Positions 1 to 61,850 of a stretch of 64,000 nucleotides of DNA are shown here, piece by piece (position 1 is the stretch's first letter; each line of letters opens with the position of its first letter). Source of the stretch: an uncultured Oscillospiraceae bacterium. GTDB lineage: Bacteria > Bacillota > Clostridia > Oscillospirales > Oscillospiraceae. The stretch spans positions 124,001-188,000 of the forward strand of contig CANRFC010000001.1 in the NCBI GenBank assembly GCA_947629795.1, given 5' to 3'. The notes beneath the pieces were generated by a model that worked only from the letters and a program-made list of their open reading frames with translations, had not been told where the DNA came from and did no database searches. The translations under genes and the position numbers were made by a program.

Positions 1-3000
1 GCCAGGGCGAAGTTGGAGCCCACGGCGATCTTGGTCATGACGTTGTCGTCCTTGCCCTTGCCCAGGATCTGGACAGGAGAGTTGGAGTCGGTGACCTGGT
101 TGCTGTTGGTGCCCAGGCGGCCGTCGCCCTCGGTGGCGCCGGCGGCGGCGTTGGAGCCGTAGGTCCACACGGTGCCGTTGTCCCGGAGGACCACGGTGAA
201 GTTGTCGCCCACGCCGATCATGGGATAGGTCTTGCTGGGCTCGGAGGCGTCGCTGCCGTCGCTGGGCAGCGGCATGGCGGAGATCTTCAGGAAGGCGTTG
301 TAGTCCTGGTCGGTCTCGGCGTCGTGATACTTGGCGATGATGTAGGTCACGCCGAAGCCCACCACCTGCACCAGGCCGTTGGCGTCCACGGTGGCCACGG
401 TCTCATCCAGGGAGGAGAGGGTCACGGCACGGGGATCCACCTGGCGGACGATGTTGGCGTTGATGAGGTTGAAGCCGTCCCAGGTCTTGGTGCCGAACTT
501 ATCCACAGCCAGCTTGATCTCCTCGCCCACATGGAGGGTGTACTCGTACTTGGTGAGGGCGTACTCCTCCTCGGGCACCTGGACCGAAGCATCGGTCAGA
601 TTGTCCTGCTCGGCTTTCTTTTTTTCCTTGTAGTTGGTGGTCTCGTAGAAGTAGAGGGTCTTGAGCTGCTTATCCACGCCCACCTTCACGCCGGAGGTGC
701 GCAGCGCGCCGGCGTCGTTCCCGGTGGGGATATTCACGTTGCCCAGCTGGCCGTTGGCGTTCTCGCCCCAGGCGTAGACCCAGCCGTCGTCCAGCACGGC
801 CACAGTGTGGCTCTCGCCGGCGGCCACGCTGAGGACCCGGTGAGCGCCGCCGTTGAGGACGGTGCCGTCGGCCAGGGTGGCGGTGACGGGGGTGAGGGAA
901 GCGGCGGTGGTGCCGTTGCCCAGCTCGCCCCTGGTGTTGTCGCCCCAGGTGTAGACCTTGCCGCTCTCGGTGAGCACGGCCATGTGCCCGCCGCCCACGG
1001 CGATCTGCTTGGCGGCCTCGGGCAGGGTCACCTGCACGGGATCGGCCACCTTGATCCGGGCAGCGCCGGCGCCGGTCTGGCCGTTGGTGTTGAGGCCCCA
1101 GGTCCAGACGGTGCCGTCCTTGCGGATGGCGGCGCTGTTGTTGGCAGAGGCGGCGATGTCGGTGACGTCGTCGATGTCCACCAGCATGGGCACGATCTTC
1201 ATGGTCTCGTTGAGGGTGGCGTCGCTGTTGTCGGTGGGACGGTAGCTGTAATCCTTGACCGCGGCGGTATCCCGGGCATTGCCCAGCTGGCCGAAGGTGT
1301 TGTCGCCCCAGGCGTACACGTTGCCCCACTGATCCAGAGCCAGCACGTGCCGGGCGCCGGCGGCCACATGGACGATGTTGGTGAGGTAGACCTCGCCGGG
1401 ATTCTCATAGGCCTTGCCGTCGTTGCTGCCGTCCTCGGCGATGGCGATGGGGTTGGGATCCACGATGGAGTACTTATAGCCGTCCCGGAGGGTCTTGCCG
1501 TACTCCACGGTGGTGTGGTCCTCCAGCCCGGTCTGGGTGCCGCGGAGCACCCGGACGGGAGTGGTGTTCTTGCCCAGGGCGGACTCGGCGTCATAACCGG
1601 CAGCGCCGATGTCGCCCTTGAAGGTGCGGTTGATGCCCAGCACGCCCATGGTGTTGGTGCCCCAGGTGTAGACATAGCCGTCCTTGGCCACCGCCACGGA
1701 GAAGCTGTCGCCGGCTGCCACGTCCACGATATCGGTGAGGGTCTGGGTGTTGGACTGGGTCTTGTCCTCGGCCTGCTCGCCGGCCAGGACCTGCACGGGG
1801 ATGGGACAGATGGTCTCGCCGCCGGCGGTGTTGCCCAGCTGGCCCTGCTGGTTGTTGCCCCAGGCGTACACGTTGCCGCTGCGGTCCACAGCCAGAGCGT
1901 GACCGCTGCCCGCGGCGATCTTCACGATGTCCTTGAGGTAGTCGCCGTAGCTGTCGCCGGCGCCCTGGAAGGCCCGGACCTGGACAGGCTGGGCGCTGAA
2001 GGCCAGGCCGGAGTAGTTCACGCCCACGCCAAGCTGACCCATCTGGTTGCTGCCCCAGGTCCACACGGTGCCGTCGCTCATCAGAGCCACGGTGTAGTTG
2101 CCGTTGCTGACCACCATGGGCGTGGTGTCGATGCTGGAGTCCTCCAGCCACTCGGGATGATGATCCACATGGCGGTACTCCACCTCGATGCGCTTGGTAG
2201 CCGCGCCGTACCGGTCGGAGATGACCATCTCGCCAGCCTCGTAGCGCTGGGTCTTGACGGGGTTGGGAAGCATGATCCAGTCCTCGTAGGTGGTGAACCG
2301 GTCGGGGTTGGTGGAGACAAAGCTCATATCCTCGATGCGGTTGCTCTCCGAGGAGGTGGTGCGCTTGAGGTTGAGGTGGAAGTTATCCATCTCGTAGACG
2401 GTGCTCTTCTTCAGGATGAAGATCTGGTCATCGCCCAGGACCACCCGGTCGGGCAGCGGGTTGGCGGCGTTGAACACGGTGCTCTCGCTGAACACCTCGT
2501 TCATGTCGGGCACCCGGATGACGGCGGAGAACAGGGAGATGCCGAAGTCATCGTCCTCGGCCTGGGTCTCGGCCTCAGCCTCAGCCTCGGGCAGCTTGCC
2601 GGTGGCCAGGGCGTCGAAGCCGTAGTAATCCAGGAGATAGACCAGGCCCTCCACATCGTACTCCAGCATATCCTGATAGGCGTAGTCCAGGGTCAGGATG
2701 GCGGCGTAGCCCACCTCCAGCTCCTTGTTGGCGCCCACGGCCACGGGAGTAAGGCTGCGGTAGTCGGCGTCGCCGGTGCCCAGCACGCCCTTCTTCACGG
2801 CGGTGGACTCCTCAGCGGTGGCCCGCGTGCCGGTCCAGTTGCCCCAGCCGTAGACCTCGCCCTTGGCGTTCATGGCCAGCGCGGCGGTGTTGGTGAAGGT
2901 CAGGGGGCTCTTGTCAGCGGTGGCGGGCACGTAGAAGCCGCTCTTGGCAGAGAGCTCGGTGGCATAGAGCCGGTTGTACTGAGTGCCGTCGCCGATCTGG

Positions 3001-34205: not shown

Positions 34206-34208
34206 CTA
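34206..34208 (-). other. In-frame amber codon replacing a conserved RCC1 tryptophan
   Basis: The codon is TAG. Flanking residues are ALVEKDLTLV before and GANLKGDLGV after. In other blades of the protein (e.g. ALTMDGTVYAWGANTYGQLG) exactly eight residues separate 'AL' from the Trp, and the Trp precedes 'GAN'. The TAG occupies that Trp position with identical spacing. TGG to TAG is a single G-to-A transition. Frame and repeat content are undisturbed on both sides. Confidence 0.9.
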
Positions 34209-46200: not shown

Positions 46201-49200
46201 GTGGTCTTCCGGGCGTTGTAGCCCAGCTGACCGTAGGTGTTGTCGCCCCAGCTGTACAGGTAGCCGCTGACGCTGAGGGCCACGGCGTGATGGCTGCCAG
46301 CGGCCACGGCGATGATGCGGTCGGTCTCGGAGTAGACGTGGGTCTGGACGGTGTTGCCCACTTCCTCGTCGTACTGCTTGGTGACCACGGCAGTACCCAG
46401 GATCTCAGCCATGGCGGAGGTGCCGGCGATGACCCGGGCGGGCTGCCAGTTCACGACCTCCTCGGGCCGGGCGTTGCCGCGGCCGAGCTGGTTCATGTCG
46501 TTGTTGCCCCAGCTCCAGACCTGGCCCTGGTTATCCACAGCCAGGGAGAACTGGTCGCCGGCGGCAATGTATGTAAAGGTAAGTGCCTTGCCGTTTTCGT
46601 CCTTCAGATCCTTGAGGATCTGGACAGGGGCGGTAAGATAGGCGGTGCCGCCGTTCACATCGTTGCTGATGCCCAACTGGCCCTGGCTGTTGTCGCCCCA
46701 GGCCCAGACCTGGCCCATGGAGTCCAGCGCCAAGGAGTGGTTGGTGCCGGCGGCCACCATGGGCGCAGCCGCGATGGCGTCGGGGTCATCACTCCCCGCG
46801 CCGGCGTCGCGCTGGATGTGGCGCACCCAGACGGGCAGCACCATCATGTTGGTGCTGGCGGTCTCGGTGTTCTCTTCGCCTTCATTATAGTCAATGTAAA
46901 CGGAGGTCAGGCCCAGCTTATTGGGCTTGAGCACGACCTGAGCGCCCTCATCCCTGGTGGCGGTGAGGACGGAGGGGTCGCTGACGCCCACCGCCAGCGC
47001 ATCGGTGCTGGTGATGGTCACGTTCTCGTTGTCGTGGAGCAGGTTGAAGCCGGTACGGTGGCTGTTGATGACGTCCTTCAGGTCGAAGGACAGATACTGG
47101 CCCTCGTCCATGGAGAGCTGGGCGGGGTTATCGTAGCCCATGGGCCGGGTCTGAGAGTAGCTGTGGGACAGGGTATCGTCGGCGTTGTAGACCTCGTACT
47201 TGTCCAGCAGCAGGGTCTTGGAGTCGCCGTCGCCGGCCTGGACGTGGGTATAGGCGGTGTCGGTGGAACCGTTGCCCAACTGACCGTGGGAGTTGTCGCC
47301 CCAGTTCCAGACGTAGCCGTCATCCTTGAGGGCCGCGGCATGGGCGCCGCCCACGGCGATGCGGATGGCATCGGCAAAGTTCTGGTTTGCAGCATCGTCC
47401 TTATCCTCGCTGGCACCCCTGTCGATCAACATGGCAGAGGCACGGAAGGCGGTAAAAGTCGTGCTGTCATTGTAGTCTTCCTTCAGACCCAACTGGCCGT
47501 GGGCGTTGGAGCCCCAGGCGTAGACGCCGCCATCCTGAGCCAGGGCCAGGGAGCTGACGCCGCCGGCGGCCACGTCCACTGCGCCGACAAGGGAAGTCCC
47601 TTCAGGGTTGACCACCTGCACGGCTGCGGCCTCACGGCGCACGCTGGTCTTGGGGTCAACCAGCTCGTCGGCGGTGGGAGGCACCTCCACGTCCTCGGAG
47701 GGCTCCATGTCAGCGATATCAAAGGTATCCGTATAGGCCGCGTCGCTGCCCAGCTGGCCGTATCTGTCCGCGCCAAAGGACCACACCTGACCGCCGTCCA
47801 ACAGCAGCAGGGTGTGGTTTCCACCGGCGGAGATACCGACCACGTTGTTCATGTAGGAGATGGACTTGTTGTTCCGGAAGGCTGTAAACTCATTTGCCTT
47901 GTCAGCAGTGTTATACCCGCCGGCCACGATGCGGATGGGGGCGCGGTAGCTGAAGGTGCCGCCCACGTTCTCCTCGGCCAGGGAAGCCTCCAGGGTGTAG
48001 TCCAGATCGGTGCCGAGCTGGCCGTAGGTGTTGTCGCCCCAGGCATAGACCGCGCCGTCAGAGCGGAGAGCCACGGCGTGGCCCTCGCCGGCGGAGATGC
48101 GGATGATGTTGCTCAGGTAATAGCCCGCGCTGGCGCTCTGCCCTTCCACCACCTGGGTGGGAACGACAGTGTACTGATTGAAGGTGGGCGCGCTCTCGCA
48201 GGGTTTGCCGTTCTGCAGGGTATGCTCCCGGTCATCGTAGACGGCCAGGGCGGCCTGATAGTCCTCAAAGGTCCACTTGGCGCCGGAATAGGAGGGCTTG
48301 GCAAGCTCCCAGCTCTCATCGCGGATCAGGGTGGTCGGGACCGTCGGGTCGCTGCCATCAGCCCACTCGCCGCCCTGGACCTTGATGATGGGCTTGAAGC
48401 TGGCGACCTGCGTCTTCGCCAGGTCATAGAGACGGAGCGCGGTCAGATAGTCGTTATAGCTGGCCATTTCGCCGCCGATGTACTCGGGGACCTTCAGTGT
48501 GACCTCGAAGGTATCCTTATCAACGTAATACTCCAGCATGATATCTTGGTTGCCCTGGATCTTGATAAAGCTGGACTCGCCGCCGTTGACCAGATCGTAG
48601 AGGTACTTCTCATAGAGGAAGAGGCTGTCCAGATAGTAGGGCTTGGGCTGGGCGTCGATCTTGGGATCGGCCAGGTCGCCCAGCACGGAGGCACGGACAG
48701 AGTCAAAGCCCACTACGTCGCCCAGATAGCCGGTGCCGAGCTGGCCCTTGTCGTTGCGGCCCAGGCCCCAGACAGTGCCCCGGGCGGTGAGGAGCAAGGT
48801 AAAGCCCTTGCCGGCCGCCAGGCTGGTGACCTGACCCAGCACGCCGTCGGTGGAGATGACGTTGGCGTAGGGCAGATAGAGCACGGGGTCGGGTGCATTC
48901 TCGTCCTCTTCGTTGACCTTGGGAGGATAGGGCTCCACGCCCAGCTGGCCGGTGGTGTTGGAACCCCAGGCGTAGACCTTGCCGGTGCGGTCCACCGCCA
49001 CGGCGTGGTCATAGCCGGCGGCGATGGCCACGATGTCGGACAGGGCCACGCCGTTGACGTCCACGACCTTGACGGGGGCATCGCTGTAGACAGTGGTCAT
49101 ATCGTCGATACCCAACTGGCCCTGGCTGTTGTCGCCCCAGGTCCACACGGTACCGTCAGCCTTCAGAGCCACAGAGAAGCTGTTGCCCAGGGCGATGGCG

Positions 49201-52200
49201 GGAGTGGAACGGTAGACGTACTTGCCCGCATCGGTCTTGGAGTCCTCCACGTTGATGACGTGGACACTGAGCATGACGGAGCGCTTGGTCTCCTCATTAT
49301 AGATGCGGACCACGGCCTTGCCCACGGTCTCGCCGGCTGTCAAGGTATATCCGTTGACAGAGACCACGTTGGGGTTGGAACTGGTAATGGTGAAGTTGGC
49401 ACCTTTGTTGACAGCCAGCTCCTCCGCATTGACTACCACTTCGTTGCCATCTTCGTCCATTTCGGTCTCCTCGGTGGGCACAGTGAGGTAGGGCTGCGCC
49501 TTATCGCCAGCCACGGTGGTATTGATGTAGGTGATGCTGTCCTGCTTGTTGCCCCGCAGGCGGAAATCGGAGAGGTAGTCCTCGATGGTGCCGGTGATAT
49601 CCACGGTGTCGCCGGAGACCAGCTCGATCTCGCTGCCCAGCAGCAAGGTGGCCTGGGTGTACTCACCCACGACCATGGCCTGGGGCTCCCGGCCCTCCAC
49701 CTCGGTGAGGGTATGGGTAATGGAGGAGTCGGCGGCCTTGGGCTCGGCGCTCTGCGCAGCGGCTTCGGACTCGGGCTCGGTCTCGGGCGCGGAGGTCAGC
49801 TCCACCTCAGGCTCAGGCTCCTGCTGCTCTGTAAAGTCTTCCTGCTTGCCGCCCTCAGCCTGGACGTCAATGGGCTCATCCACGGAGAGGAGGGAGATCC
49901 CGCCGGCGGCTGCGCCCTTGTCAACGACCATAATATTGATAGTGACGGCCTTGTCGGTGGACAGTTCGCTAAGCCCGGCCACAGTTTGACCCTTGCTCGT
50001 AACATTTTCAGTAACCACGACAGAAGAGGTGTTGCCGGGCACACTCCCCTGGGTGCCAGAACTGGGACCGCTTCCGCCATAGACAACTGTCCAGGTATAA
50101 TCGTAAGCATGGCTGGGGTCGTCGGTCACAGCAGAGATGACCACGCCCAGATTCACAGGGCCGCCCACATCAGTATGAGCCTCATAGACCGGGACTCTGA
50201 TGCTGTCGAGGGGCACATCCTGGGTGGCATCGGCAGTCACCCTGACCACTTCGGTCCCGCTGTCCTTGGACTGATCATAGCTCTCGATGGTCAGGGTAGT
50301 GGTACCCACAAAGGGAATGGCCCCATGATTCTCCCCCATCACCGTCACGGAATAGTTGATGGTCATATACTTGAGGTTGGCCATCACCACGGCAGAGGTC
50401 TGCAGGGCGTCGGCCACAGCGCCGGGAACCTGCACTTCGTCAATATAGACGAAGTAGACGTCCTGAGGCACTTCGCCCACGTAGACGCCGCCGGCCTTGT
50501 GCTGAAGCCGATAGGAGGCCCAGACCACATCGCCGGTATTGGTGGCATCTGTACCACGCCCGGTGGCGCTCTGAACGGTGACATACCCATCTTCGGCATC
50601 GTTACGGTCGGCCCACTCCTGGCCGTCCAGGGTGAACTTCACCAACTCCTGCGGCCTGCTCTCCGCAGTGGAGGTGGCAGCCACTTCCAGCTTGGCGCCG
50701 GGCACAGTGACCTGGTAGACCATGGTCTGGTTATTGGCCGCGGCAACGCTCATGTGCAGATCCTCCATATTGGTGGGGGACCACTGGAAGGTGGGCTTAT
50801 AGAGGTTGTCAAATCTGGGGGCCCCGTAGGCCTTGAAAACCAGGGGCGCACCCTTGAGGACGGGCGTCCCGCTCTTCAAATAATACTTGTAGTCGTTGGG
50901 CGCCTTCGAGCCGACGGGCGCCTCCACGGCAGAGATCACGGTCTTGCCGTTCTCATCGGTGGTGGTCTTTCCGTAATAGGCACGCAGATAGGCCCAGGAA
51001 ACACCGCCGCTGGGGGTGATGCTGTAGTCCAGGGTGAAGTACTCCATCACCGTGCTCTCGCCGGAACCCACGTGCATGGTCATGCCGGTGTCGTAACCCT
51101 CAATGGAGTCGACCTCGCCCCGGCCTTCCTCGGCGGGGTCATCAGTGGTCTTCAGTGTCACGTCGCCGTCAATGATACGATAGACGCCGTTGGGCACCTT
51201 CTCCACAGAGAATGCGCCGTTGCTGCCCTCCTCCAGCTGGATGGCGATAAAGTCGCTGACCAGCCAAAGGGTCTTGCCGCTGTTGTTCCAGGCATTGTTG
51301 TCCTTGTAGAGAGTAAGCCCGGCATTCTCAACCGTGGGACCGGTAATGGTGCAGGTCAGGTCCAGCGTATCGTGGAGGCTCTCGATGGTATAGATGCCGT
51401 CCATCACCGGGGAGCCTTCGGTCCGGGCCACGGTGGTCACCACGGGCTCGTTCTTGCTGTTCTCCACAGCGTCGGACCAGCTGTACTTATAGTCGTCCAC
51501 CACGCCGTTGTGTCCGACGGCGCGGATGACCAGCTTCTTGTTGCCCCAGACGATGTCGCCGCTGCTGATGGACTCTTCCTGGCCGGGCATGCCGTAGGTG
51601 GCAATGAGTTCGCTGTCATTGCCGTCAAGATTTATGGGATTCAGTTCGAAGTTGACGGTGAAGAAGTCCACGATGACGGGCTCCCTCTCCTCAATGCCCT
51701 TGCTCACCACCACATCGGCGCCGGTGTCCTCCCAGAGGGCCTCCACTGTCTCGCCTTCGGTCTCGCCGCCGGAGGAGGTGATCTTGCGGGCCATGACGCT
51801 GTAGTTGCCGCCCTTCACGGCGTTGTTCCTGTAAAGGGTCCTGCCTTCACTGTCTTCCTCGGATACCCGGGTCAGCGCAAACTCGGTGGCCACGGGGGTG
51901 TTGAGGACCAGCTTGTAATCGTACTGCTGCTTGCTGTCGGGATAGGCCTCATGGTCCAGCTCGATGGCCACGGTCACCTCATGGTCCACATTGCCGCCGT
52001 AGTTGATCACGCCGGCCACATGGGGAATGTACGCCTCTTCAAAGCCCACATGAGCAGTGGCGGCGCGGTCCACCAGGGAGAACTCGCCCAACTGGCCGGT
52101 GGCGTTGGCACCCCAGCTGAAGACCTCACCCACATCGGTGAGCGCCAGGCCATACCCGCCGGCAGCAGCCACAGAAGTGATCACGCCCTTATTGCCATTG

Positions 52201-55200
52201 ACCGGGATCTCCTTCAAATCGCGGCTGATATTGTTCTTATAGCTGTCTTTGTTGACCTCCATCTCAGGATTGGTGCCCAGCTGGCTGTCGCTGTTGTAGC
52301 CGAAGGCATAGACCTTGTTCTCTGTAAGGTCATTCTCCTTGTCACCGTTTGCACGGAGGATCACGCTGAAGTACTGGCCGGCAGCCACATCGACAGCATC
52401 TTTGATCAGGTTGGAACTGCTTGTCTCACCGCTGTAAAGATCCGCGGCGAAGTTCATGTACTCTCTGTTCTCATACAAGGTATGGCCACACTGACCGTAG
52501 GTGTTGTCGCCCATGACACGCACCCGGCAGGCATCGCCCTCACCGCTGATGAGGATGGTGTGCCGCTCACCGGCAGCCACCTTGACAATGCCGGACACCG
52601 GGCTGTTGCTGTCGGCCAGCTTCGCTTCATCCGGTGTGAAGGTATAGAACAGAGGCAGGTTGGTGTCGGGATCGTTTTCGGTCTGGCGGCGATCATAGCC
52701 CAACTGGCCATAGGTGTTATCGCCCCAGCCCATCATGCTGGTGGCATCCGACATTATATCCCCGCCGGAGGTGTGGAACTTGCCCACCGCCAGAGAGTGG
52801 TAGGCGCCGGCGACCACAAAGTCGGCTCCGGAGAGGTACCGCTCCTGGGGATCCGTAGCGTTCAGGTCGTGCATCACCTGGCTGGGCTCGCTGCGGGTCA
52901 TGCCGGTGGCCGCCCGGTTATAGCCGCTGCCCAGCTGGCTGTGAGAGTTGTCGCCCCAGGTATAAATGAAACCGTCGCTGTTGCCCAGCAGGGCCATGGA
53001 GTGAGCGGCGCCGGCCGCCAGACTGGTGGCTCCGGTGAGATAGGTCACGCCCTCATTAAAGAGGATGCTGTTGCCGGCCTTGACCTGGACTGGGAAGGCA
53101 TATGCCTTGTCAGCATCCGCACCCTGGCCGATCTGGTCCTTGCTGTTGTCGCCCCAGGCATACACGCTGCCGTCACTGGTCCGTGCCAGCACGTGGTGGT
53201 AGCCGGCTGCGATCTCCTCAATAAGGTTGAGCCGCTTGGTCGTATTGTTCAGACCCTTTACAGGTGCAGGGTAGGTGGTGAAGGGAGTCTGGGAACCGGT
53301 GAAGCCGATGCCCAGCTGTCCATAGGAGTTGTCACCCCAGGACCACACGCTGCCGTCGGACTTCAGCGCCACAACAAAGCCATCGCCGGCCTTCACGGTA
53401 GGCGTGGTGAAGTTGTCGGCGTCCTTGACGGACAGCTGGAAGGAACCGCGGTAGGCGTCCTCATCCAGCTTCTCCGCAGCCAGGATCTCCTGGGCGCTGA
53501 GAGTGGTCAGGCCATACTTCGGAGCTTCTTCGTTGCTGGTGGGCATGATGTGAGCGTCGTTCAGCTTGGTCTCGGGAACGAACGCATTGTAGTCCTCCAC
53601 CAGGTCCACATCGGCGATGCCCTCATCCACGTTGAACTCAGACTTGTCATAGTCCACGCCGGTGACCCACTCGGGGGTAGGTTCGGTGCGGTCCCGCTCC
53701 ACCAGGTTGAAGCCCACGGTATAGAACCGCTGGATGCCCTCCCGGAAGACCACCACATCCTGGCGGTCGGTGATGGGAAGCACAGACATGAGCTTGCTCT
53801 CGGGGATGTACTCCGCCTGAGGAGCCAGAGCCTTATCGGCATCGGTGAGGGGCATGGAACCCAGGTGCTCGGCATAGCGGGCAGTGAGCAGACGCTCGGT
53901 CACGCCGGTATCGGGGTCCTCGTCGGTGGTATAGACCCAGACCTTGTTGAAGAGCAGTTCCTTACCGATGCCGGCACCCACCCGAACGGGAAGGGTCTGG
54001 TCCTTGTTCAGGTCCCCGGTAACTCCCATCTCCTGAATGGCAATGTCGGCGCCCAGCTCACGGGCGTAGTTATAGCCGGTGCCCATGACCGTGCCGTCTT
54101 CCAGCCAGTAGATGGTGTAACCAAAGCCGGCGGAAACTCCTACCACAGTGTTGTGAGAGTCCTTCTCCACGGTCGCGCCGGGAACGCTCTCATCAGGCTC
54201 GCTGCGCAGGATCTGGAGCGGGTTCAGCTGAAGCTTGTTCCCCGACTCGCTGCCCTGTCCAAGTTCGCCGTAGTTGTCATAGCCCCAACCATAGGCGTAA
54301 TACTTGGGCACCAGCTTGGTCGTCGGCTCAGGCTCGGCGGTCTCGGCCAGGAGGGAGATCCCTTCCTCCTCCATCAGGTCGCCCACGCTGGGTTCCGGCT
54401 CAAGGGGCTGCTCGTCTGTCCCCTCGGTCTCCTGCTTGCTCTGGTCCTCCTCTACCTTATTAGTATTCTCTTCCTTTTCGCCGGTCTCGGTCTCGGTCTT
54501 GTTCTCATCCTCGGTCTTGTTCTCGTCTTCGGTCTTGTTCTCGGTCACAGTCTTGTTCTCGTCCTCGGTGCTGTTTTCGTCCTCGGTCTTGTTCTCGGTC
54601 ACAGTCTTGTTCTCGTCCTCGGTGCTGTTTTCGTCCTCGGTCTTGTTCTCGGTCTCAGTCTTGTTTTCAGTCTCAGTCTTGTCTTCAGTCTCAGTGTTGC
54701 TTTCGGTCTCAGTCTTGTCTTCGGCCTCGGTCTTGTTCTCTGCTTCGGTCTCGGTGCTCTGGTCCTTCTTGATCTGCTCCATCAATGCGGCTTCCTCCGC
54801 CGCGGTCATGATCTCGCTGTCAAGGGAAACTGCTTGCGTGCCGATCTCAGTGGCAAGGAGCTCAAGATCCAGGTCCTGCCCCTCCACGGTCTCGTCCTCA
54901 GGCATGGCAACATCGCCGCCCTCGGACTGCTCCGAAGTCGACGTGCTGTTGTCCTCCTTCTGTTCCTCCTCGCCGGTCACACTCTGGGAGGGTCCAGCAG
55001 GAGTGGAGGGCTCCTCGGACTTGTCACCCTCAGGGACCTTGTCGGTCTCCTCGGGTACGGGCTCCTCGGTGACCTTGTCGGTCTCTTCGGGCGTAGGCTC
55101 CTCGGTGACCTTGTCGGTCTCCTCGGGCGTGGGCACCTCAGTGACCTCAGGGGTCTCCTCGGGCTTCACGCTCTCGGTGGCCGCGGGAGTCTCTTCGGGC

Positions 55201-58200
55201 ACGGGGCTCTCGGTGACAACGGGAGTCTCCTCGGGAGCCGGGCTCTCGGTGGGCTCTTCCAAATTCAGGGTAGCGATCTCAGCCTCCGGCTCGGGGGTAA
55301 CGACCTCCTCCTCCAGCCGGCGGACCACAGCGGTGGTGTGATAGACGCCGGTGTCGATGGCTACGATCCGAAGACCGTCCCGCTCAAAGTCTTCCCGGAA
55401 GCCCACGCCGACAGGGGTAATCTCGCCCTCATTCTGGAGCTGCTTGTTGTTGCCCACCTGGCCGTAGTTATTCTCGCCCCAGCCCCAGACCTTGGTCTCG
55501 CCGGTGTAGGTGCCGCTGCTTGCCACCGCAGCGGTGATGGCCGCGGCGTGGCCGCTGCTGCTTGTGGTATTCGTGGAGGCAAGGCCCCATGCAGAGACCG
55601 CCACCACGCTGTTGAAAGTGGTCGCTGTGGTCGTATTATAAGGTATACAGTTCATGATCTGGGCGGCATAATTGCGGTTCTCCAAGCTCTCCTTGGACAC
55701 GCCGCTGCCCAGCTGGCCCATGCGGTTGTCACCCCAGGACCAGGCATTGCCGTCGGCGCTCATGGCCACAGAGAAATGGCTGCCGGCGGAGATGGCCACG
55801 ATCTTTTTCAGGAGACTGGTCCCATCCTCGCTCGCCACCACCTGGGTGGGCGTGGTGCAATAGGGGATACCGGCACTGGTCTTCGGCAGACCCGCCGCCG
55901 CAGTGTCGCCGATGCCCAGCTGGCCATCGTCGGCCCGGCCCCAGGCATAGACGGTACCGTCACTGGCCAGGGCAAGAGCGTGGTCCACGCCGGCAGAAAT
56001 GGCGATGATGTTGCACAGGTGGCCCTTCCCGTCATTGTTGGCATCGCCCGCGGGAGCCTTCACCAGGGTGGGCTCGGTCACCTGAGTGCTGGGCTCTTCG
56101 GTCACGCCCAACTGGCCATAGGTGTTGGCGCCCCAGGCGTAGACGGTACCGTCCATGGTCAGCGCCATGGAGAAGTCGTTGCCGGCGGACACCGCCACGA
56201 TGTCGTCCATCACCTGGTAGGACCCGTTGCTCTGCCGGATATAGATGGGCTTGGGCTCACCGATCTCTCCCATGTTCTGGGAGCTCAGCTGGCCGTGAGA
56301 ACCAGAGCCCCAGCCGTAGACCGTCCCGTTGCCCAGCACGGCAAGGGAGTGGTACTGACCGGCCGAGACCATGGGCACGGCGCTCTTCATTTCAAAATAG
56401 TTGGGGTCCTCGCTCTCGCTGCTCTGGCGGTAGACGTCCCGCACCTCCAGAATGGCCGAGGCATATACCAAACTGTAAAATTTGTCACGGCCCAGGGCAT
56501 ACACTGTGGTCCGGCCCTCGGCAGTGGGCTTCAGCTTCCCGGTGGTGGGGTCATAGGAAGCGATCCGCTCGTCCAGCACCGCCACCTGGCCCGCCTGCAT
56601 GGTCCCGCCGGCATCCTGGATAAGGGCGGACATGATGCTGTCGATGTCAATGAGGTCGGGCTCATTGTCATTGATGTAACCCCGAATGACATAGCTCCGC
56701 CCATCGGGGCCCTGGTTCTGCCCGTTGAAGCGGCCCTTCATATCGGCGATCTGCTCAGCCACCGTCTTGGGCTGCTCCTCCACAGGCTCTTCGGTGGGCT
56801 CGGGAGAGGGCTCGGGCTCCTCCAGGGTCTGGGCCTCGTTGTCCATCACGGTCTCGCCCCAATAGTAGGCGGCACCGTAGGTACGGATGCTCTCATTGCT
56901 GCGCATATGTACTCCGAAGAAGGCCTGGACCACATTCTCCGGCAGCTCCTCCTGAGCGGCCTCATCCTCCTGGGCCTCAGCGGAAGCGGAGGGAGTTGCC
57001 TGGGCGTCATCGCCGGCGGTCTCCTGGGTCTCGGCAGCGGGAGTGGCCTCGGGCTCGGCGGAGGGAGTCGCCTCGGCGTCGTCTCCGGTCTCCTCAGGGG
57101 TGGGAGCCAGAGCGGGAGGCTCGTCCTCGATGATCTCCCCGGTGGGCTCGGCAGAGGGCTCTTCAGAAGGTGCGGCAGAGGGCTCCGCAGAGGGTACAGC
57201 GGAAGGCTCGGCAGTGGGAGTCGCCGAGGGGACCGCGGAGGGGACCACACTGGGCTCGGCAGAGGGCACGACAGTGGCCTCTGCCGAAGGCTCGGCAGAG
57301 TTCTGGGTCCCCAGCAGATTGAAACCGGTGTCGCCAGCCTCGGTCTTGGTGGCGTCGTCCCCGGTCTGCTCCTGCAGGGCGTTGATGACCTGGTCCACGT
57401 CCACCGTAGAGTCGGCTGCGTTGATGATCAGACCCTCGGCCTTGGCCCGCTCCTCAAAGGGGGTCAGGTCATAGACCGACTTGGACTGCACCAGGCCCTC
57501 CTTATAGAGCTCCCACAGGAAGTCCTGGACCTCCTGGGGCTGGTCGGCGATGCTCTTGGTGCCCACTTCCTCGGCGCTGGGGCCGGAAAGGGCGGTATCG
57601 GTGGTGCTGCCGGCGTTCTCGCCGAAGAGGGCCGCGATCTGCTCGTCAGTGAGGTCGGCAATTTGTCCGTTATTATTTAAGGTAGTGGCGGCGGGAATGG
57701 TCACCTTGGGCCGCTCGCCGGTCCAGGTGAGCTTGGCCCGGCAGGAGATCATGGGGGCCCGGTCCCGGGTGCCCTCGTAGATGGTCCAGCTCACAGGCTC
57801 GATGGAGAGACTGTCGCTGTAATCCTCGTCCTCCATGGCGGCTTCCCACACGAACTGCTGCTTCAGCTTCAGGGCCGCCTCGGCAGAGGGCCGCTTGGAG
57901 AGCCGCTGGCTCTCGCTCAGGCCCTTGATGTACTCCCGCTGCTCGTGGGTCAGGTAGGTCACCCGGTCCAGATCCACGCTGGTGGGGATAAAGGCCGCAT
58001 ACTGATCCAGGGTCAGGCCCAGATACTGGATGTCGGTCATATAAGCAGTGACCTCGATGGTATCCTCCCCTTCCGAGAACACCACAGCGGACGGATCCAG
58101 GGTCAAGGGCATGGCAATATCCGCCGACCCCAAGTCATACTTGGAAGCGACGGTGTCCACACTCGACTGACCCCTGTCCTTGGTCTGGGCCACCGCGGCA

Positions 58201-58307
58201 GCCAGGTCTTCCGCCTGGGCCGTGGGGACAAGGCCGGTGAACAGGGAGAGCGTCATTGATGCAGTTAAGATCCCCGACACGATCCGTGCGGGCAGGCGAT
58301 CCAGCAT
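34206..58307 (-). CDS. Giant secreted RCC1-repeat protein, N-terminal 8,033 codons up to an in-frame TAG
   Basis: Function unknown. RCC1 repeats form seven-bladed beta-propellers, usually for protein or surface interaction. I see a signal peptide (residues 1-32), a unique region to about 330, a PSAEPS-type linker (about 335-455), then RCC1 blades from about residue 640 to the end. The blade signature is AGxxHSxAL...DGTVYAWGxNxxGQLG. An acidic linker interrupts at about 1000-1335. Ig-like modules beginning 'GFNL' recur near 53700, 47050, 45150, 42340, 40080 and 35850, with divergent versions near 49500 and 38100; they resemble bacterial Ig (BIG_2-like) folds and sit between propeller blocks. 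I chose the ATG at 58307 because AAGGTGA lies 9 nt upstream. A GTG at 58316 is in frame but sits on that site. No cell-wall anchor is visible before the TAG. The same protein continues in frame beyond it, so this is the 5' part of a larger gene. Surface adhesin or scaffold is a guess. Confidence 0.9.
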   Translation of the reverse strand: MLDRLPARIVSGILTASMTLSLFTGLVPTAQAEDLAAAVAQTKDRGQSSVDTVASKYDLGSADIAMPLTLDPSAVVFSEGEDTIEVTAYMTDIQYLGLTLDQYAAFIPTSVDLDRVTYLTHEQREYIKGLSESQRLSKRPSAEAALKLKQQFVWEAAMEDEDYSDSLSIEPVSWTIYEGTRDRAPMISCRAKLTWTGERPKVTIPAATTLNNNGQIADLTDEQIAALFGENAGSTTDTALSGPSAEEVGTKSIADQPQEVQDFLWELYKEGLVQSKSVYDLTPFEERAKAEGLIINAADSTVDVDQVINALQEQTGDDATKTEAGDTGFNLLGTQNSAEPSAEATVVPSAEPSVVPSAVPSATPTAEPSAVPSAEPSAAPSEEPSAEPTGEIIEDEPPALAPTPEETGDDAEATPSAEPEATPAAETQETAGDDAQATPSASAEAQEDEAAQEELPENVVQAFFGVHMRSNESIRTYGAAYYWGETVMDNEAQTLEEPEPSPEPTEEPVEEQPKTVAEQIADMKGRFNGQNQGPDGRSYVIRGYINDNEPDLIDIDSIMSALIQDAGGTMQAGQVAVLDERIASYDPTTGKLKPTAEGRTTVYALGRDKFYSLVYASAILEVRDVYRQSSESEDPNYFEMKSAVPMVSAGQYHSLAVLGNGTVYGWGSGSHGQLSSQNMGEIGEPKPIYIRQSNGSYQVMDDIVAVSAGNDFSMALTMDGTVYAWGANTYGQLGVTEEPSTQVTEPTLVKAPAGDANNDGKGHLCNIIAISAGVDHALALASDGTVYAWGRADDGQLGIGDTAAAGLPKTSAGIPYCTTPTQVVASEDGTSLLKKIVAISAGSHFSVAMSADGNAWSWGDNRMGQLGSGVSKESLENRNYAAQIMNCIPYNTTTATTFNSVVAVSAWGLASTNTTSSSGHAAAITAAVASSGTYTGETKVWGWGENNYGQVGNNKQLQNEGEITPVGVGFREDFERDGLRIVAIDTGVYHTTAVVRRLEEEVVTPEPEAEIATLNLEEPTESPAPEETPVVTESPVPEETPAATESVKPEETPEVTEVPTPEETDKVTEEPTPEETDKVTEEPVPEETDKVPEGDKSEEPSTPAGPSQSVTGEEEQKEDNSTSTSEQSEGGDVAMPEDETVEGQDLDLELLATEIGTQAVSLDSEIMTAAEEAALMEQIKKDQSTETEAENKTEAEDKTETESNTETEDKTETENKTETENKTEDENSTEDENKTVTENKTEDENSTEDENKTVTENKTEDENKTEDENKTETETGEKEENTNKVEEDQSKQETEGTDEQPLEPEPSVGDLMEEEGISLLAETAEPEPTTKLVPKYYAYGWGYDNYGELGQGSESGNKLQLNPLQILRSEPDESVPGATVEKDSHNTVVGVSAGFGYTIYWLEDGTVMGTGYNYARELGADIAIQEMGVTGDLNKDQTLPVRVGAGIGKELLFNKVWVYTTDEDPDTGVTERLLTARYAEHLGSMPLTDADKALAPQAEYIPESKLMSVLPITDRQDVVVFREGIQRFYTVGFNLVERDRTEPTPEWVTGVDYDKSEFNVDEGIADVDLVEDYNAFVPETKLNDAHIMPTSNEEAPKYGLTTLSAQEILAAEKLDEDAYRGSFQLSVKDADNFTTPTVKAGDGFVVALKSDGSVWSWGDNSYGQLGIGFTGSQTPFTTYPAPVKGLNNTTKRLNLIEEIAAGYHHVLARTSDGSVYAWGDNSKDQIGQGADADKAYAFPVQVKAGNSILFNEGVTYLTGATSLAAGAAHSMALLGNSDGFIYTWGDNSHSQLGSGYNRAATGMTRSEPSQVMHDLNATDPQERYLSGADFVVAGAYHSLAVGKFHTSGGDIMSDATSMMGWGDNTYGQLGYDRRQTENDPDTNLPLFYTFTPDEAKLADSNSPVSGIVKVAAGERHTILISGEGDACRVRVMGDNTYGQCGHTLYENREYMNFAADLYSGETSSSNLIKDAVDVAAGQYFSVILRANGDKENDLTENKVYAFGYNSDSQLGTNPEMEVNKDSYKNNISRDLKEIPVNGNKGVITSVAAAGGYGLALTDVGEVFSWGANATGQLGEFSLVDRAATAHVGFEEAYIPHVAGVINYGGNVDHEVTVAIELDHEAYPDSKQQYDYKLVLNTPVATEFALTRVSEEDSEGRTLYRNNAVKGGNYSVMARKITSSGGETEGETVEALWEDTGADVVVSKGIEEREPVIVDFFTVNFELNPINLDGNDSELIATYGMPGQEESISSGDIVWGNKKLVIRAVGHNGVVDDYKYSWSDAVENSKNEPVVTTVARTEGSPVMDGIYTIESLHDTLDLTCTITGPTVENAGLTLYKDNNAWNNSGKTLWLVSDFIAIQLEEGSNGAFSVEKVPNGVYRIIDGDVTLKTTDDPAEEGRGEVDSIEGYDTGMTMHVGSGESTVMEYFTLDYSITPSGGVSWAYLRAYYGKTTTDENGKTVISAVEAPVGSKAPNDYKYYLKSGTPVLKGAPLVFKAYGAPRFDNLYKPTFQWSPTNMEDLHMSVAAANNQTMVYQVTVPGAKLEVAATSTAESRPQELVKFTLDGQEWADRNDAEDGYVTVQSATGRGTDATNTGDVVWASYRLQHKAGGVYVGEVPQDVYFVYIDEVQVPGAVADALQTSAVVMANLKYMTINYSVTVMGENHGAIPFVGTTTLTIESYDQSKDSGTEVVRVTADATQDVPLDSIRVPVYEAHTDVGGPVNLGVVISAVTDDPSHAYDYTWTVVYGGSGPSSGTQGSVPGNTSSVVVTENVTSKGQTVAGLSELSTDKAVTINIMVVDKGAAAGGISLLSVDEPIDVQAEGGKQEDFTEQQEPEPEVELTSAPETEPESEAAAQSAEPKAADSSITHTLTEVEGREPQAMVVGEYTQATLLLGSEIELVSGDTVDITGTIEDYLSDFRLRGNKQDSITYINTTVAGDKAQPYLTVPTEETEMDEDGNEVVVNAEELAVNKGANFTITSSNPNVVSVNGYTLTAGETVGKAVVRIYNEETKRSVMLSVHVINVEDSKTDAGKYVYRSTPAIALGNSFSVALKADGTVWTWGDNSQGQLGIDDMTTVYSDAPVKVVDVNGVALSDIVAIAAGYDHAVAVDRTGKVYAWGSNTTGQLGVEPYPPKVNEEDENAPDPVLYLPYANVISTDGVLGQVTSLAAGKGFTLLLTARGTVWGLGRNDKGQLGTGYLGDVVGFDSVRASVLGDLADPKIDAQPKPYYLDSLFLYEKYLYDLVNGGESSFIKIQGNQDIMLEYYVDKDTFEVTLKVPEYIGGEMASYNDYLTALRLYDLAKTQVASFKPIIKVQGGEWADGSDPTVPTTLIRDESWELAKPSYSGAKWTFEDYQAALAVYDDREHTLQNGKPCESAPTFNQYTVVPTQVVEGQSASAGYYLSNIIRISAGEGHAVALRSDGAVYAWGDNTYGQLGTDLDYTLEASLAEENVGGTFSYRAPIRIVAGGYNTADKANEFTAFRNNKSISYMNNVVGISAGGNHTLLLLDGGQVWSFGADRYGQLGSDAAYTDTFDIADMEPSEDVEVPPTADELVDPKTSVRREAAAVQVVNPEGTSLVGAVDVAAGGVSSLALAQDGGVYAWGSNAHGQLGLKEDYNDSTTFTAFRASAMLIDRGASEDKDDAANQNFADAIRIAVGGAHAAALKDDGYVWNWGDNSHGQLGNGSTDTAYTHVQAGDGDSKTLLLDKYEVYNADDTLSHSYSQTRPMGYDNPAQLSMDEGQYLSFDLKDVINSHRTGFNLLHDNENVTITSTDALAVGVSDPSVLTATRDEGAQVVLKPNKLGLTSVYIDYNEGEENTETASTNMMVLPVWVRHIQRDAGAGSDDPDAIAAAPMVAAGTNHSLALDSMGQVWAWGDNSQGQLGISNDVNGGTAYLTAPVQILKDLKDENGKALTFTYIAAGDQFSLAVDNQGQVWSWGNNDMNQLGRGNARPEEVVNWQPARVIAGTSAMAEILGTAVVTKQYDEEVGNTVQTHVYSETDRIIAVAAGSHHAVALSVSGYLYSWGDNTYGQLGYNARKTTMSSFARRMAKGAAPSTSNYVEEVVSVDAGGDNTIILLSNGTVFTVGRNDKGQLGQQNSRDIYNHYSFVKVRQGESTNPRDSKDSSMNKVVAVAAGWNHQVVLRLDGKIYAWGDNSKGQIGTLKAPEAEQPPVETLDETAGETPAEPVEVPTYTDMATLMTDPDGLTIGGGSETDPANPYYGQQIAAGFNSTFTKVQDLRVVEPLKQVKTLAWGDNSMGQHGNYGPGAGETAVKNGTPIDQDNTVPRDENGKVVGAQTDYDYMRDVMTFAIGENHMLLVNDDGVVFAAGDNTYGQLGDFTTDAWNYPVVVGDLSYETIIAMGHTDSDTTVRLLSPQVTLVENEKLYFDLASMSFVWNKGFNLLQHIPVGEISSGDLRFLSLDAGLIDQNQDATSDGTVVFNANDDETLRRYGETFIQIYHPETGRTLLLRVVVKQKSDEYTTAPQVAVGSRHTVALRSDGTVWAWGRNQEAQLGDNTFVDRAYPVQMVDADGNPYQRIKAVAAGDEFSLLLTDEGKVIVVGLLTGVTSNFIHIPTAQEKLQAELALRPEKAAMLRSGETGSTAYQVVPFNEDGVLPPESIPTGSTQDGYVVKLFEYRVKSLDRDGYETYEGETKYDVNATFTMTEAEKAEHDADETLYRYYWPGYHYINSTGDNCGLFMDIPETCPICETPSATGHNITRETQAATGSQFQPVQTTVSFNVTYGEPDGEPQKCYYYEIMDDQAQKVIHKLTQEFEYNGTTYLVEPGFNSAAPGAYMIERPITAGGQSGTVYIWTKLENREYTTFTGYLNISCNHYPTTTFHYDPLDTITPLHCPMDPTCPSVGQEAFTLIYEDSYDVWYNREMSDGKTKTVDVNHWNDPEQPDVPEDQWRYRIWRCDRHGHIIFDYYDLGEDISTPGRGVLAVGEGEDAVELTDIIDIAAGKDHVLALTRGGQVYAAGSFSRGELGQNDTKQYNGAVQVKGFKSKGFLEHVIDVAAGDQYSVALLDNGTLYAWGDNTYGQLGLGRMIPDAEVDGQIVDVNYSSTPIQVMSGEYEVDASAQFNILSGVAAIAAGDHHVSAIATEFKTTTTTTEPAEGETEPTTTVTHTAQRSVFSWGDNSKGQLGVTLEGADIALQPMRVPGTGDSVSLDAGTAHTVARQADGTVLAWGDNARQQLSDGQADEYGHVTVSDGEAVTASGEAEKVIIAAAGGNHSVIVLANGRVLSFGDNTFSQLGIAASGSGNLESPAADDVRSAPTYTGDQAAQFLEFQFDGKYTRNGYDAITLVWSENEDEAVTILDQASRENYAGFNLLTNEVDKQPVSLADDYQGLRFISSDESVVIVEKKGDTWRVRNAEKTYSDFQKMGEVSIAAVDSQGNVLSVFRVKVLGTYTDPDDPTKTTTRFTVPMVVSSETATVALKADGTVWTWGLGAYTVPSGENKGKQIELRNPTQLGTLENVVQIAAGKNHFVALKANGTVYTWGDNTYGQTGIYTSEEEYYKTIVSDLNSQNEPITTRINRYARVQYIDFPTNLTEHLASREQHDIVKTEAGAYDFENEPMTLPTIVAVAAGDHHTLLLDETGNVWAFGDNSKGQLGVGDKEYDYTTRLTTVNVPEKEVDSARYTPTRVLKGTSASSTYYLSNVIAIRAGGDSSGVVLSNGTAYTWGYNDKGQLAVAASGDVMVPVPVSGAADQGGVGALRNVVDLSMGKDHSLYQVVTYLGDRPEDHVEEQTPSDEDVGTLALPAPDDEVDPGMSVIPVGELTMTVYAAGSNEYGQLGQGKPGASVYTYVCTTEGCTNASTVLEGTSSTITCSGCGAELTGHLKTQGLANSVAPLRVVDTEGNFLTGVRQVSAGNGYSLALCSDILHGGEIDKDTGVHDSKLYAWGRNTVGQLGQGQSDGKGNMVQPADTTAAALVRKGGTVSMVEIVGYGETLPDGTERKAEYIRENLLISAGNLTTQLVQEDGTVWFTGENSGHQGADFTTEDRSVPTQTGLGTFYSLIIGKANMYQHDDLNTPMEPVYDAATKTWTWPPKTVTTRERMPRSVTMYDDQYLWIDEQDLRQAFSSGFNLIDPEFERRLPLDAIIEYTSSDPSIADFKYVNGTLYLVPTGESYGRIIITLRNKRDAYWGDYEVIILPSDNFQGVIPEAAVTVISANNANIALQADGTVWQWGQFTLRVNNRGSWDASTKDIRQHGTYTVTYEMPTQVSFSGMADGEHIVQIDGYDRTFMALSNLGNVYVWGSNDYGQFGDGTYNSYGWTGSSYSIYQVSYDSMVGHKVKGIGPGTPGGTIYNISMGKGFALAVGEGGYVWAWGLNDKGQQGKDAQGQWAYYTAHSNTDFCPYTEDDVELEMKDDGTLGYPEGKEVHPIVYTTPHKVLGLESLDYLKNITRVAAGDGFALALRSDSTLFAWGDNSYGQLGVNSNTGSLHAIQVKPGEYDADAAYFRDVIEIDAGAGYAMALTRNGEVYTWGNGANGRLGNGSTENKSLPSKVLIPDNLMATAIYAGANHAMVMAIPRTVRQESAESGIPDLDKPETLSQGVNNQVWAWGYNSNRQLGNNTDVTYSATPVRVLAGDCVTYNDDGTTRDYFSTAIAVAAGGTHSVLVDWDGEIYVVGHYGWGKYDQGAGDEVIEADSVLPDRFGPDETKMYRWYVDGKRMPSYYTLKVFVDVDAYTKALQNPATVPAVSGTTLDVPFAQLVQDYDYTYSLRHGADRLPFDMDSIDGLVLEVSDPSVIKAELYTDETSGAVAGIRVTSVGIGWANLLITNTKTGFSMMLAFNVTEVSLALHATATPMVSAGEDFAIALRANGDVYVWGSLGRYWNTYNRSSGYGSWKNSYSQTPIKVSNISGAIQVSAGYDHALILTNAGTVYALGRNDYGQLGNGTWDYYKYSDGGQGSSDYGSYFSYTTSFTDAVQVSGITNAGQVVAGKYFSAAVDRTTGEVYVWGRNYFTEVRGNTDYNDNATAHTSYWNYGAHDGSANGYAIRRIFTSPVKLRAGYSASHTESVSGSVGYQHNTILTNIFQVSARDASLVMLRMDGKVFVVGQNDIPAGTWATALPDGGANSASNALLGAGYTDAAGTHLYTTKQYNPYPVAAGSSGQGQLSHVLDLESGSTHTLALQSTTTRTEETTQTTHTYTCPTCGKTFTDENIGSQIKVETVTDETTGDVTTTVTLTCDGTIPATAEGEADTPCTYDDVLTADNITETTVTIPATTTQGRRVLSWGANDQSQLGVTGDSTGTIQVMTTDAVTGGNITDLLRVYAGGHTNAAVRNTATSAGLTSSASLTNTAWVWADNGQYQAAQGVLDPAVSVFTAGQEPVQGDSHNTLPERSGKLNRVYDLALGENATYAVQTEGSVWAWGLQGSSRVYRLGTFKSGDQATPVQVGAEDFYELLVDDAAMYTYEISGVSDAYTKYTRKLSETYQASTTYDPHTNKAASTDSEGNTVPADFVNPLGHHVKMLPFQELEIDLTTIYLHLDWGFNLRVDAEDRAAARDYLTVTSSNSELLTVTYLDESGNVITDLTGENEPAKVRLTPNREPGAFGTVSVVIKDAYNGVQGLILVSLLPSVGEDTTDQGMNLIGLSDNSNDRIITVPQVVTVGPQNPEAPWSDSDPNKVPHTWNTTYALSSSGELYAWGDNYRGQMGNGRQGILNSTSVDTPMLVATGVLQIAAAAHSAVIVKTDGKAYQVGYRAPQWETRGSSTLGTQDSVGAYYADFTAVDIPGTVIKVGVGTNLSSRPTAIDYSKDTWVSNQYFYALNSAGDVYFWYLQSFNDDYTHSIRFTNYSSAVKVNYGHRNSYWDTTSLSHIVDIAAGEGGLLALSANGSVYFSTIGEGLGGHYYGYIDDWGNNDWDLRAHRLVGSGVGGYFDTAAAVTVGTQRLMLTQDGQLYRVDNQAYADPFLREAKAAAALKGYDAKFENGYYVFTKTAPAEPEAPAETASLDPADLPAVTAGETAPETGTDETGTAGDETLNETEDPGVETAEIYYFHLTGATNGVNNNAAYGTLYVSAADGSKALVEKDLTLV
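36660..36890 (-). other. Cys-rich insert 3 (zinc-ribbon-like)
   Basis: The segment YTCPTCGKTFTDENIG is followed by TLTCDG...TPCTYDD about 35 residues later. CPTCGK is typical of a zinc knuckle. RCC1 blades flank both sides. Confidence 0.5.
40795..40925 (-). other. Cys-rich insert 2 (zinc-ribbon-like)
   Basis: Two CxxC-type knuckles, YVCTTEGCTN and ITCSGCGAELTG, lie about 20 residues apart inside an RCC1 region. The arrangement looks like a zinc ribbon. Confidence 0.5.
43500..44260 (-). other. Cys-rich insert 1 in the giant protein
   Basis: A stretch of about 250 residues without clear RCC1 blades contains Cys pairs: NCGLF, CPICETP, ISCNHYP, HCPMDPTC and RCDRHGH. Spacing resembles zinc-ribbon or disulphide-linked modules. 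It is followed by a new RCC1 block (DIAAGKDHVLALTRGG). Confidence 0.55.
54310..55310 (-). repeat. Acidic linker with tandem hexapeptide repeats
   Basis: Residues about 1000-1335 are Glu/Thr/Lys-rich. The upstream half repeats PTPEETDKVTEE (36 bp). The downstream half (about 54470-54770) repeats 18-bp units encoding ENKTED, ENKTVT and ENSTED. Within it, 54541-54594 and 54595-54648 are two identical 54-bp copies. Copy number could vary by slippage or recombination. Confidence 0.85.
56950..57300 (-). repeat. PSAEPS low-complexity linker in the giant protein
   Basis: Residues about 335-455 are runs of PSAEPS, PSAVPS and EATPSAEP units with acidic stretches. Such Pro/Ser/Glu linkers are typical spacers in exported Firmicute surface proteins. 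It lies between the unique N-terminal region and the first propeller. Confidence 0.8.
58212..58307 (-). other. Signal peptide of the giant protein
   Basis: Residues 1-32 have basic residues (MLDRLPAR), a hydrophobic core (IVSGILTASMTLSLFTGLV) and an AxA-type cleavage site (TAQA before EDLAAAV). This predicts Sec export, so the repeats would act outside the cell. Confidence 0.85.
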
Positions 58308-58316
58308 CTCAGTCAC

Positions 58317-58377: not shown

Positions 58378-58406
58378 ATTATGCCATTAGTTGACGTAAA
58401 AATCAA
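58378..58406 (-). promoter_or_regulatory. Predicted sigma-A promoter of the giant gene
   Basis: On the minus strand, TTGATT (58401-58406) and CATAAT (58378-58383) are separated by 17 nt. The predicted start near 58371 gives a 5' leader of about 64 nt before the ATG at 58307. Confidence 0.6.
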
Positions 58407-61842: not shown

Positions 61843-61850
61843 GTTTATCC

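Follow-up and report, generated by a model that had tools for sequence, protein, structure and literature searches.

A conserved giant gene of Oscillospiraceae is predicted to encode a secreted chain of about 30 RCC1 propellers

In this work we analyzed a 64,000-nucleotide stretch of DNA (the window) from an uncultured Oscillospiraceae bacterium, the minus strand of which carries the larger part of a single giant gene. The window corresponds to positions 124001-188000 of contig C1 (205,368 bases), which was read piece by piece and includes the window without a single differing letter; the source genome (G000; G-numbers designate genomes throughout) has 2.86 Mb in 83 contigs and is 98.6% complete. 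From these analyses we conclude that this is a conserved gene of the Oscillospiraceae, unbroken in relatives, and not a concatenation artefact. Its product is predicted to be secreted and, in our judgement, is probably a multivalent surface binding fibre with about 30 seven-bladed RCC1 propellers.

The minus-strand frame is open from a GTG at 58316 (the first ATG lies at 58307) to 34209, a first part of 8,036 codons, and beyond an in-frame TAG at 34206-34208 it stays open for 11,401 codons to the left edge of the window. A first-pass annotation of this DNA had described a single minus-strand frame from a start at 58307 to the left edge, with one stop and at least 19,435 codons. The frame scan confirms this description, the Met of the relative in G002 aligns with the first Met at 58307, and the codon count is exact for 58307 to 3; it understates the whole, since the frame extends a further 55.9 kb to the left of the window and ends at C1:68116. 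The second part thus comprises 30,029 codons and the complete frame 38,065 sense codons (C1:68116-182316, 114 kb, one in-frame TAG). From the base composition, the second part should contain 727 stops, and the probability of finding none is about 10^-320. The product of about 2 MDa that had been proposed holds for the share inside the window only, the predicted mass of the whole being 4.1 MDa. The gene also exceeds the 20 kb cut used for giant genes in PMC10066038, with 114 kb and one stop here and 97-122 kb without a stop in seven relatives. Differences between the copies of G004 and G005 are distributed over the codon positions as 0.35/0.30/0.55, as for a coding frame. An antisense giant gene was considered, since the plus strand here carries longer frames (15,884 and 21,942 aa), and was rejected as a by-product of codon usage: TTA, CTA and TCA together make up 4 of the 38,065 codons of the giant, their near absence accounts for the long antisense frames, and in 100 codon shufflings of the gene the longest antisense frame had a mean of 17,211.

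In seven relatives (G002, G004, G005, G082, G326, G165 and G757) the gene is a single stop-free frame, 32,278 to 40,690 codons long, and two of these are single-contig genomes. When the first 666 residues were used to scan named genomes, five relatives were obtained, each in an Oscillospiraceae or Eubacteriales record; three of them lie on contigs able to hold the gene and each is one stop-free frame, of 34,110 codons in the complete genome of Oscillospiraceae bacterium CE91-St43 (AP025582.1), placed in the same genus as the genome of the window, and of 32,936 and 32,701 codons in the two others, a 100-N gap near the end of the 32,936-codon frame garbling its last residues. Among 400 genomes of the family, alignment of the N-terminus identified 8 hits, counting the own genome, in 3 of 106 genera (6 of 245 for high-quality genomes); frames of 40,690, 39,569 and 32,278 codons are among them, the last on a single-contig genome of 3.67 Mb. 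The gene is present in 8 of 16 genomes of its own genus (3 of 6 of high quality; one frame has 37,709 codons), in 3 of 6 genomes of the sister genus, and in 2 of 394 genomes of an order-wide sample, both of the same family. For the hits in G157, G756 and G761, either the frame leaves the contig end or the contig is too short for the gene. A single break on a long contig was seen in two genomes, G000 itself and G019, the latter with ambiguous bases at the break. When the C-terminal 1,500 residues were used as query, two relatives were obtained among 7,988 scored candidates; both are metagenomic fragments that carry the two-loop tail described below.

The order along the chain is also conserved. 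Collinear blocks could be chained to each of the seven relatives, and these chains account for 74-95% of the own frame, with an identity of 31-43% (coverage of 0.74 for G002, 0.76 for G004, 0.74 for G005, 0.95 for G082, 0.87 for G326, 0.84 for G165 and 0.94 for G757; a looser chain gives 0.97 for the last). Single collinear blocks span the position of the stop in four of them (G002, G082, G326, G757), and the chain has a gap there in the other three. Among the 209 RCC1 blades of the own giant, the best match is no more than 10 blades away from the collinear position for 152 in G002, 133 in G004, 179 in G082 and 160 in G165, where about 20-23 would be expected; likewise, the blade of the relative beats the best blade of the own protein for 156, 125, 176 and 169 of the 209, respectively. 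Given that the matches at the collinear place in the relatives mostly surpass the internal ones, the chain is, by these comparisons, old and stable in its order, and not a freshly amplified array. Speaking against such stability, 64 of the 209 blades have their best internal match in the adjacent blade, partly because the cut-out blades overlap. A very long repetitive gene in a multi-contig genome could also consist of repeats concatenated by the assembly, as the first-pass annotation had been aware. We give this explanation a negligible probability, given that the same order is found in two single-contig genomes, that there are no exact direct repeats of at least 80 nt in the giant frame, and that for 125 to 176 of the 209 blades the own blade is closer to that of the relative than to any other own blade. 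For the family, concatenation is refuted by the single-contig genomes, the collinearity and the lack of long exact repeats; together with the seven stop-free relatives, this sustains the earlier description of a single real gene.

The predicted protein starts with a putative signal peptide, which was read by eye at the N-terminus of all eight long members, followed by a family-specific N-terminal domain and a Pro-, Glu-, Ser- and Thr-rich spacer. The AlphaFold2 model of the N-terminal domain is of low confidence (pTM 0.41) and had no PDB match at E<=0.001. The next and largest region is formed by RCC1 repeats. With PF00415, the own genome yielded 241 candidates, of which 150 were scored and 137 matched at E<=0.001, all in the giant locus; 136 matches are above the curated cut-off, and none was obtained in 14 control genomes. 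Within the window only RCC1-type models were matched by Pfam at E<=0.001. Thus, of the mixture of RCC1 blades and Ig-like modules that had been assigned to both sides of the stop, the RCC1 blades are indeed present on both, and no Ig-like module was matched by Pfam in the window, the Big_2 and Cadherin-like matches being located further left. A profile built from the family itself counted 209 blades in the own giant (residues 632 to 26,989) and 195 to 218 in each of the other six members counted, despite a length difference of 26%. When the blades of these seven members were grouped in clusters (n=231), size 7 was the commonest (49 clusters), and sizes 13 and 14 together accounted for 20, as expected for seven-bladed propellers, single or paired; from this, the number of propellers per chain is estimated at about 30. 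The structure of one of these groups was modelled (residues 1580-2330). Most of the propeller part of the model is of high confidence, and a Foldseek comparison matched it to UVR8 (4dnw; E 3.6e-26, TM 0.87 by target length) and also to RCC1 and BLIP-II structures; sequence comparison of the same piece gave matches to UVR8 and HERC2.

The blades are followed by a region of about 10,000 residues (~27,000 to 37,300) with Pfam matches to Cadherin-like, which, as those to Big_2, all lie left of the window. At the C-terminal end there is a dockerin-like calcium loop, from which a few hundred residues, with an acidic or Pro-rich spacer among them, lead to a second loop and to a final tail of about 30 residues. 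Nine C-termini were examined with a strict pattern, which detected the first loop in 7 of them and the second in 6; the misses include G004, which ends in a gap, and G019, which has ambiguous bases, and the second loop of G326, missed by the pattern, is seen by alignment. In the five members in which the pattern found both, the halves are separated by 352 to 676 residues. The first-pass annotation had proposed to extend the frame leftward to the true C-terminus and to any LPXTG or SLH anchor; the extension yielded the end at C1:68116, with no SLH or Gram_pos_anchor match in the Pfam scan of the giant, the last 100 residues of which are also devoid of an LPXTG-like motif.

In relatives, SLH anchors are found instead on the second gene downstream. 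In eight of eight other genomes (G002, G004, G005, G082, G326, G165, G757 and G019) the giant is directly followed, in the same direction, by a gene that we call d1, whose product (1,460-1,922 aa) looks secreted and has at its C-terminal end DVNNDRNINNIDAN-like calcium loops similar to those of the giant. The gene after it, d2, encodes ~3,100-3,600 aa with C-terminal SLH in six of the six genomes examined (G165, G002, G004, G082, G326, G757), a count that leaves out G019 and also G005, where the contig ends before d2. The d2 products of G004, G082, G326 and G757 carry Big_2 as well as SLH, and in G002 one open frame carries both SLH and Dockerin_1. All seven genomes tested are rich in SLH matches (44-140 each), and Dockerin_1 was found in four of these seven. 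A cellulosome-type docking was rejected, as the cohesin PF00963 was found in none of the seven genomes (in the controls, it was found in 1 of 14). Sortase anchoring was also rejected: sortases are present in 7 of 8 genomes, yet the last 100 residues carry no LPXTG-like motif. As for export, one SecA above the cut-off was found in each of 8 genomes, and a dedicated second SecA was not found among them. The only secA lies upstream of the giant, at ~9-28 kb in G002, G004, G082 and G326 and at 44 kb in G165; it is on the contig of the giant in five of the eight genomes and on another contig in G000, G005 and G757. Its nearness is taken as synteny, not as evidence for a dedicated exporter.

With these elements, a mechanism may be proposed. 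The chain would be exported through the Sec pathway by the single housekeeping SecA and would fold domain by domain outside the cell. The region after the blades would form a stalk, the two-loop tail would attach to d1 or d2 in a calcium-dependent manner, and d1 and the SLH protein d2 would hold the giant on the wall. The ~30 different propellers could then offer many separate binding sites for surfaces of the host, food or neighbour cells. BLIP-II is a secreted protein. Its propeller binds beta-lactamases, according to the structure titles, and it provides an example of an RCC1 propeller that binds proteins. In its most specific form, which we put forward only tentatively, the proposal is of a 4-MDa chain with ~30 individually conserved propellers, each with its own ligand, a long stalk, and calcium loops that would join it to co-encoded SLH-anchored partners.

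The propeller chain could alternatively be a structural coat, that is, an S-layer-like cover, or a scaffold for the capture of food polymers, and not an adhesin. The abundance of SLH in all the genomes tested, the dockerin-like loops on the giant and its neighbours, and the coat proposed for an Omnitrophota giant (PMC10066038) are in favor of this idea; nonetheless we find it unlikely, given that the propellers differ from one another and are conserved by position, a pattern more in keeping with many distinct binding sites than with a lattice made from a single unit, and that Pfam reported no carbohydrate enzyme or carbohydrate-binding domain in the giant.

Several observations weigh against a multivalent binding fibre as we have described it. 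Regarding the propellers, 34 of the 231 clusters are single blades, which indicates that the profile misses some, the blade counts are approximate with overlapping blade ends, and the linker after the modelled propeller has a pLDDT below 50. Only four stretches of the region that follows the blades pass as Cadherin-like on their own, and no domain could be assigned to its remainder. Besides RCC1, no adhesive domain was matched by Pfam on the giant, and Dockerin_1 gave no match there at E<=0.001, the tail having only separate half-motifs by pattern; since cohesin is lacking in the seven genomes, the proposed docking is without a known receptor. Two of the three pairs (the GC3-rich G082-G326 and G000-G002) lack an excess of differences at the third codon position, and the crude dN/dS to G757 (0.59) is not usable; because of the GC3 bias, neither comparison is a clean test. 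Finally, the own genome has both the stop and a remnant in which d1 and d2 are fused, and these point to a copy that possibly does not work any longer.

In this copy, the first in-frame start codon after the TAG is a TTG at 34082, and no signal peptide was seen there by eye. The gene directly downstream of the giant in G000 (758 aa) is a fusion of the first ~85 residues of d1 with residues 2159-2823 of d2 (G757 numbering), without the Big_2 and SLH end; this fusion and a 1,076-aa frame after it occupy G000:C1:62373-67845, and the only other trace of d1 in this genome is that same fused piece. The own locus thus appears to be either damaged or misassembled, with two lesions or two assembly errors. 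To the second possibility, in which the stop and the fusion are errors and the locus of the strain is intact, we give close to an even chance: the seven relatives are stop-free, the genome is in 83 contigs and a similar lone break occurs in G019 at ambiguous bases, although the window contains no ambiguous base and two independent lesions would have to coincide in one locus. It is also quite conceivable, if somewhat doubtful, that the copy was recently broken, the TAG being a real mutation, d1 and d2 having been reduced to the fused remnant, and either a short secreted piece or nothing being made. The in-frame TAG itself and the contrast between the intact d1 downstream in the eight other genomes and the remnant without Big_2 and SLH in G000 agree with a recent break; in contrast, there is no second stop or frameshift over 30,029 further codons, the identity to G757 over aligned residues is not lower after the stop (0.47-0.53 by region) than before it (0.46), and assemblies err in the same way, as indicated by the ambiguous bases that adjoin the single break of G019. 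That the stop is read through, or that TAG has another meaning in this organism, is in accordance with a frame open and conserved past it; a single TAG in 38,066 codon positions and the stop-free frames of the relatives make this very improbable. A wider search for assemblies that span the stop reduced 622 candidates to 9 proteins (eight HERC2-like and one RCC1 protein of 7,076 aa); all of them are distant, and the search is therefore uninformative about the stop. If the TAG is real, the product would be cut at 8,036 residues (54 blades), without stalk or tail. With the stop and the deleted or misassembled d1 and d2, the full product may not be made in this genome.

The features of the window are listed in Table 1. 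Upstream of the giant, no gene is common to all seven flanks compared. In the window, this side carries a gene for a TusA and DsrE-like fusion (59065-59664, minus strand), with a 200-aa relative upstream of the giant in G002, a transposase gene of the IS605/OrfB (TnpB-like) type at a distance of about 2.4 kb from the giant (60730-61854, minus strand), and a PemK/MazF-like gene of 260 aa (62369-63151, plus strand; Pfam E 5e-9). On the downstream side, a frame of ~4,850-5,050 codons follows d2 in the same direction in G002, G004, G082 and G326, and further downstream of the own giant there is a 6,351-aa surface protein with SLH and InlB-type repeats (G000:C1:42388-61443).

Table 1. Location of the features assigned to the window (window coordinates)
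Feature	Position	Strand	Remarks
Candidate sigma-70-like promoter, TTGATT-17-CATAAT, with TG before the second hexamer	58378..58406	-	Consensus match only, upstream of the giant; 1 found, shuffle mean 0.5
Start ATG (58307) and predicted Sec signal peptide	58212..58307	-	Signal and cleavage site read by eye; residues 4-35
Family-specific N-terminal domain, residues 65-290	57447..58124	-	Conserved in relatives; TAYMTDIQYL invariant in 6 aligned sequences
Giant frame up to the stop, 8,036 codons with 54 RCC1 blades	34209..58316	-	
Window share of the RCC1 propeller region, with 155 of the 209 blades of the whole frame	3..56423	-	
Modelled RCC1 propeller, ~residues 1636-2094	52035..53411	-	Residues 1625-2159 hold 7 blades by count
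Single in-frame TAG, residue position 8037	34206..34208	-	Only TAG in 38,066 codon positions before the terminal stop
Window share of the second part, 11,401 of 30,029 codons, RCC1 region continuing	3..34205	-	
Antisense frame, 15,884 codons	10026-57680	+	

Bacterial giants of similar size and small RCC1 surface proteins are already known. Giants of 39,678 aa in Omnitrophota, with peptides detected (PMC10066038), and of 36,805 aa in Chlorobium chlorochromatii (PMC6837184) have been reported, both with a proposed role at the surface or in attachment, and sizes up to 85,800 aa have been predicted (PMC12057145); hence, the first-pass statement that this is one of the longest bacterial frames is right as to its extreme length, and the scale is not unique. 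The gene described here resembles the Omnitrophota and Chlorobium giants in its order of size and in the surface role proposed, and in this case the order is collinear in seven relatives; most Omnitrophota giants are described as having few recognisable domains and little conservation (PMC10066038). In honeybee-gut bifidobacteria, wall-attached RCC1 proteins have RCC1 domains that average 7 repeats (PMC4449606), and the giant is likewise built of domains of about seven. The bifidobacterial proteins are reported with 2-4 such domains, an LPxTG anchor and Flg_new repeats (PMC4449606), whereas the giant has about 30 domains in one chain in an order kept across three genera; no Flg_new repeats were matched by Pfam on the giant, and its last 100 residues also lack the LPXTG-like motif. 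The Paenibacillus proteins that combine RCC1 and SLH according to their source names (942-963 aa) show RCC1 via SLH, as is proposed here, although in them SLH is on the same short chain, and here it is on a neighbour protein and the chain is ~34-43 times longer. The modelled propeller has the same fold as those of RCC1, UVR8, HERC2 and BLIP-II, which occur as single propellers or small sets and, among those listed, are mostly eukaryotic. The two calcium loops near the C-terminus recall dockerin proteins, from which the giant differs in the distance between the halves and in having neither a Dockerin_1 match nor a cohesin in the genomes tested. In comparison with the fibrillar adhesins as outlined in PMC8286594, stalk domains are represented by the Cadherin-like and Big_2 matches, few stretches of which pass alone; a known adhesive domain was not found, RCC1 being absent from the main text of that paper, and the anchor on the same chain (SLH, LPXTG or others) is missing from the giant.

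The claim that no bacterial RCC1 protein on such a scale had been described stands among the literature matches listed, which include no RCC1 giant from Oscillospiraceae or other Clostridia. Protein searches covered 0.55-1.75 times the query length, that is, up to ~1,314 aa and ~4,420-14,063 aa, a range in which other giants could not be listed, and their longest match other than HERC2 has 7,076 aa. This protein (P0129) carries RCC1, Cadherin-like and FN3 domains and comes from a 146-kb contig. What is new, then, is that about 30 propellers on a single chain are combined with a conserved order and conserved partner genes, in the Oscillospiraceae.

Compared with the Omnitrophota giants, this family offers domains that can be recognised, an order maintained over large divergence, conserved neighbours and the complete genome of a named strain (CE91-St43), so that the export, folding and cost of megadalton proteins become directly testable by proteomics and electron microscopy. 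The gene takes up ~4% of the own 2.86-Mb genome and ~5% of the 2.3-Mb genome G082, and therefore the benefit it confers should be large. If the proposal is true, this multi-receptor fibre would be a bacterial surface machine of the Oscillospiraceae unlike any described adhesin.
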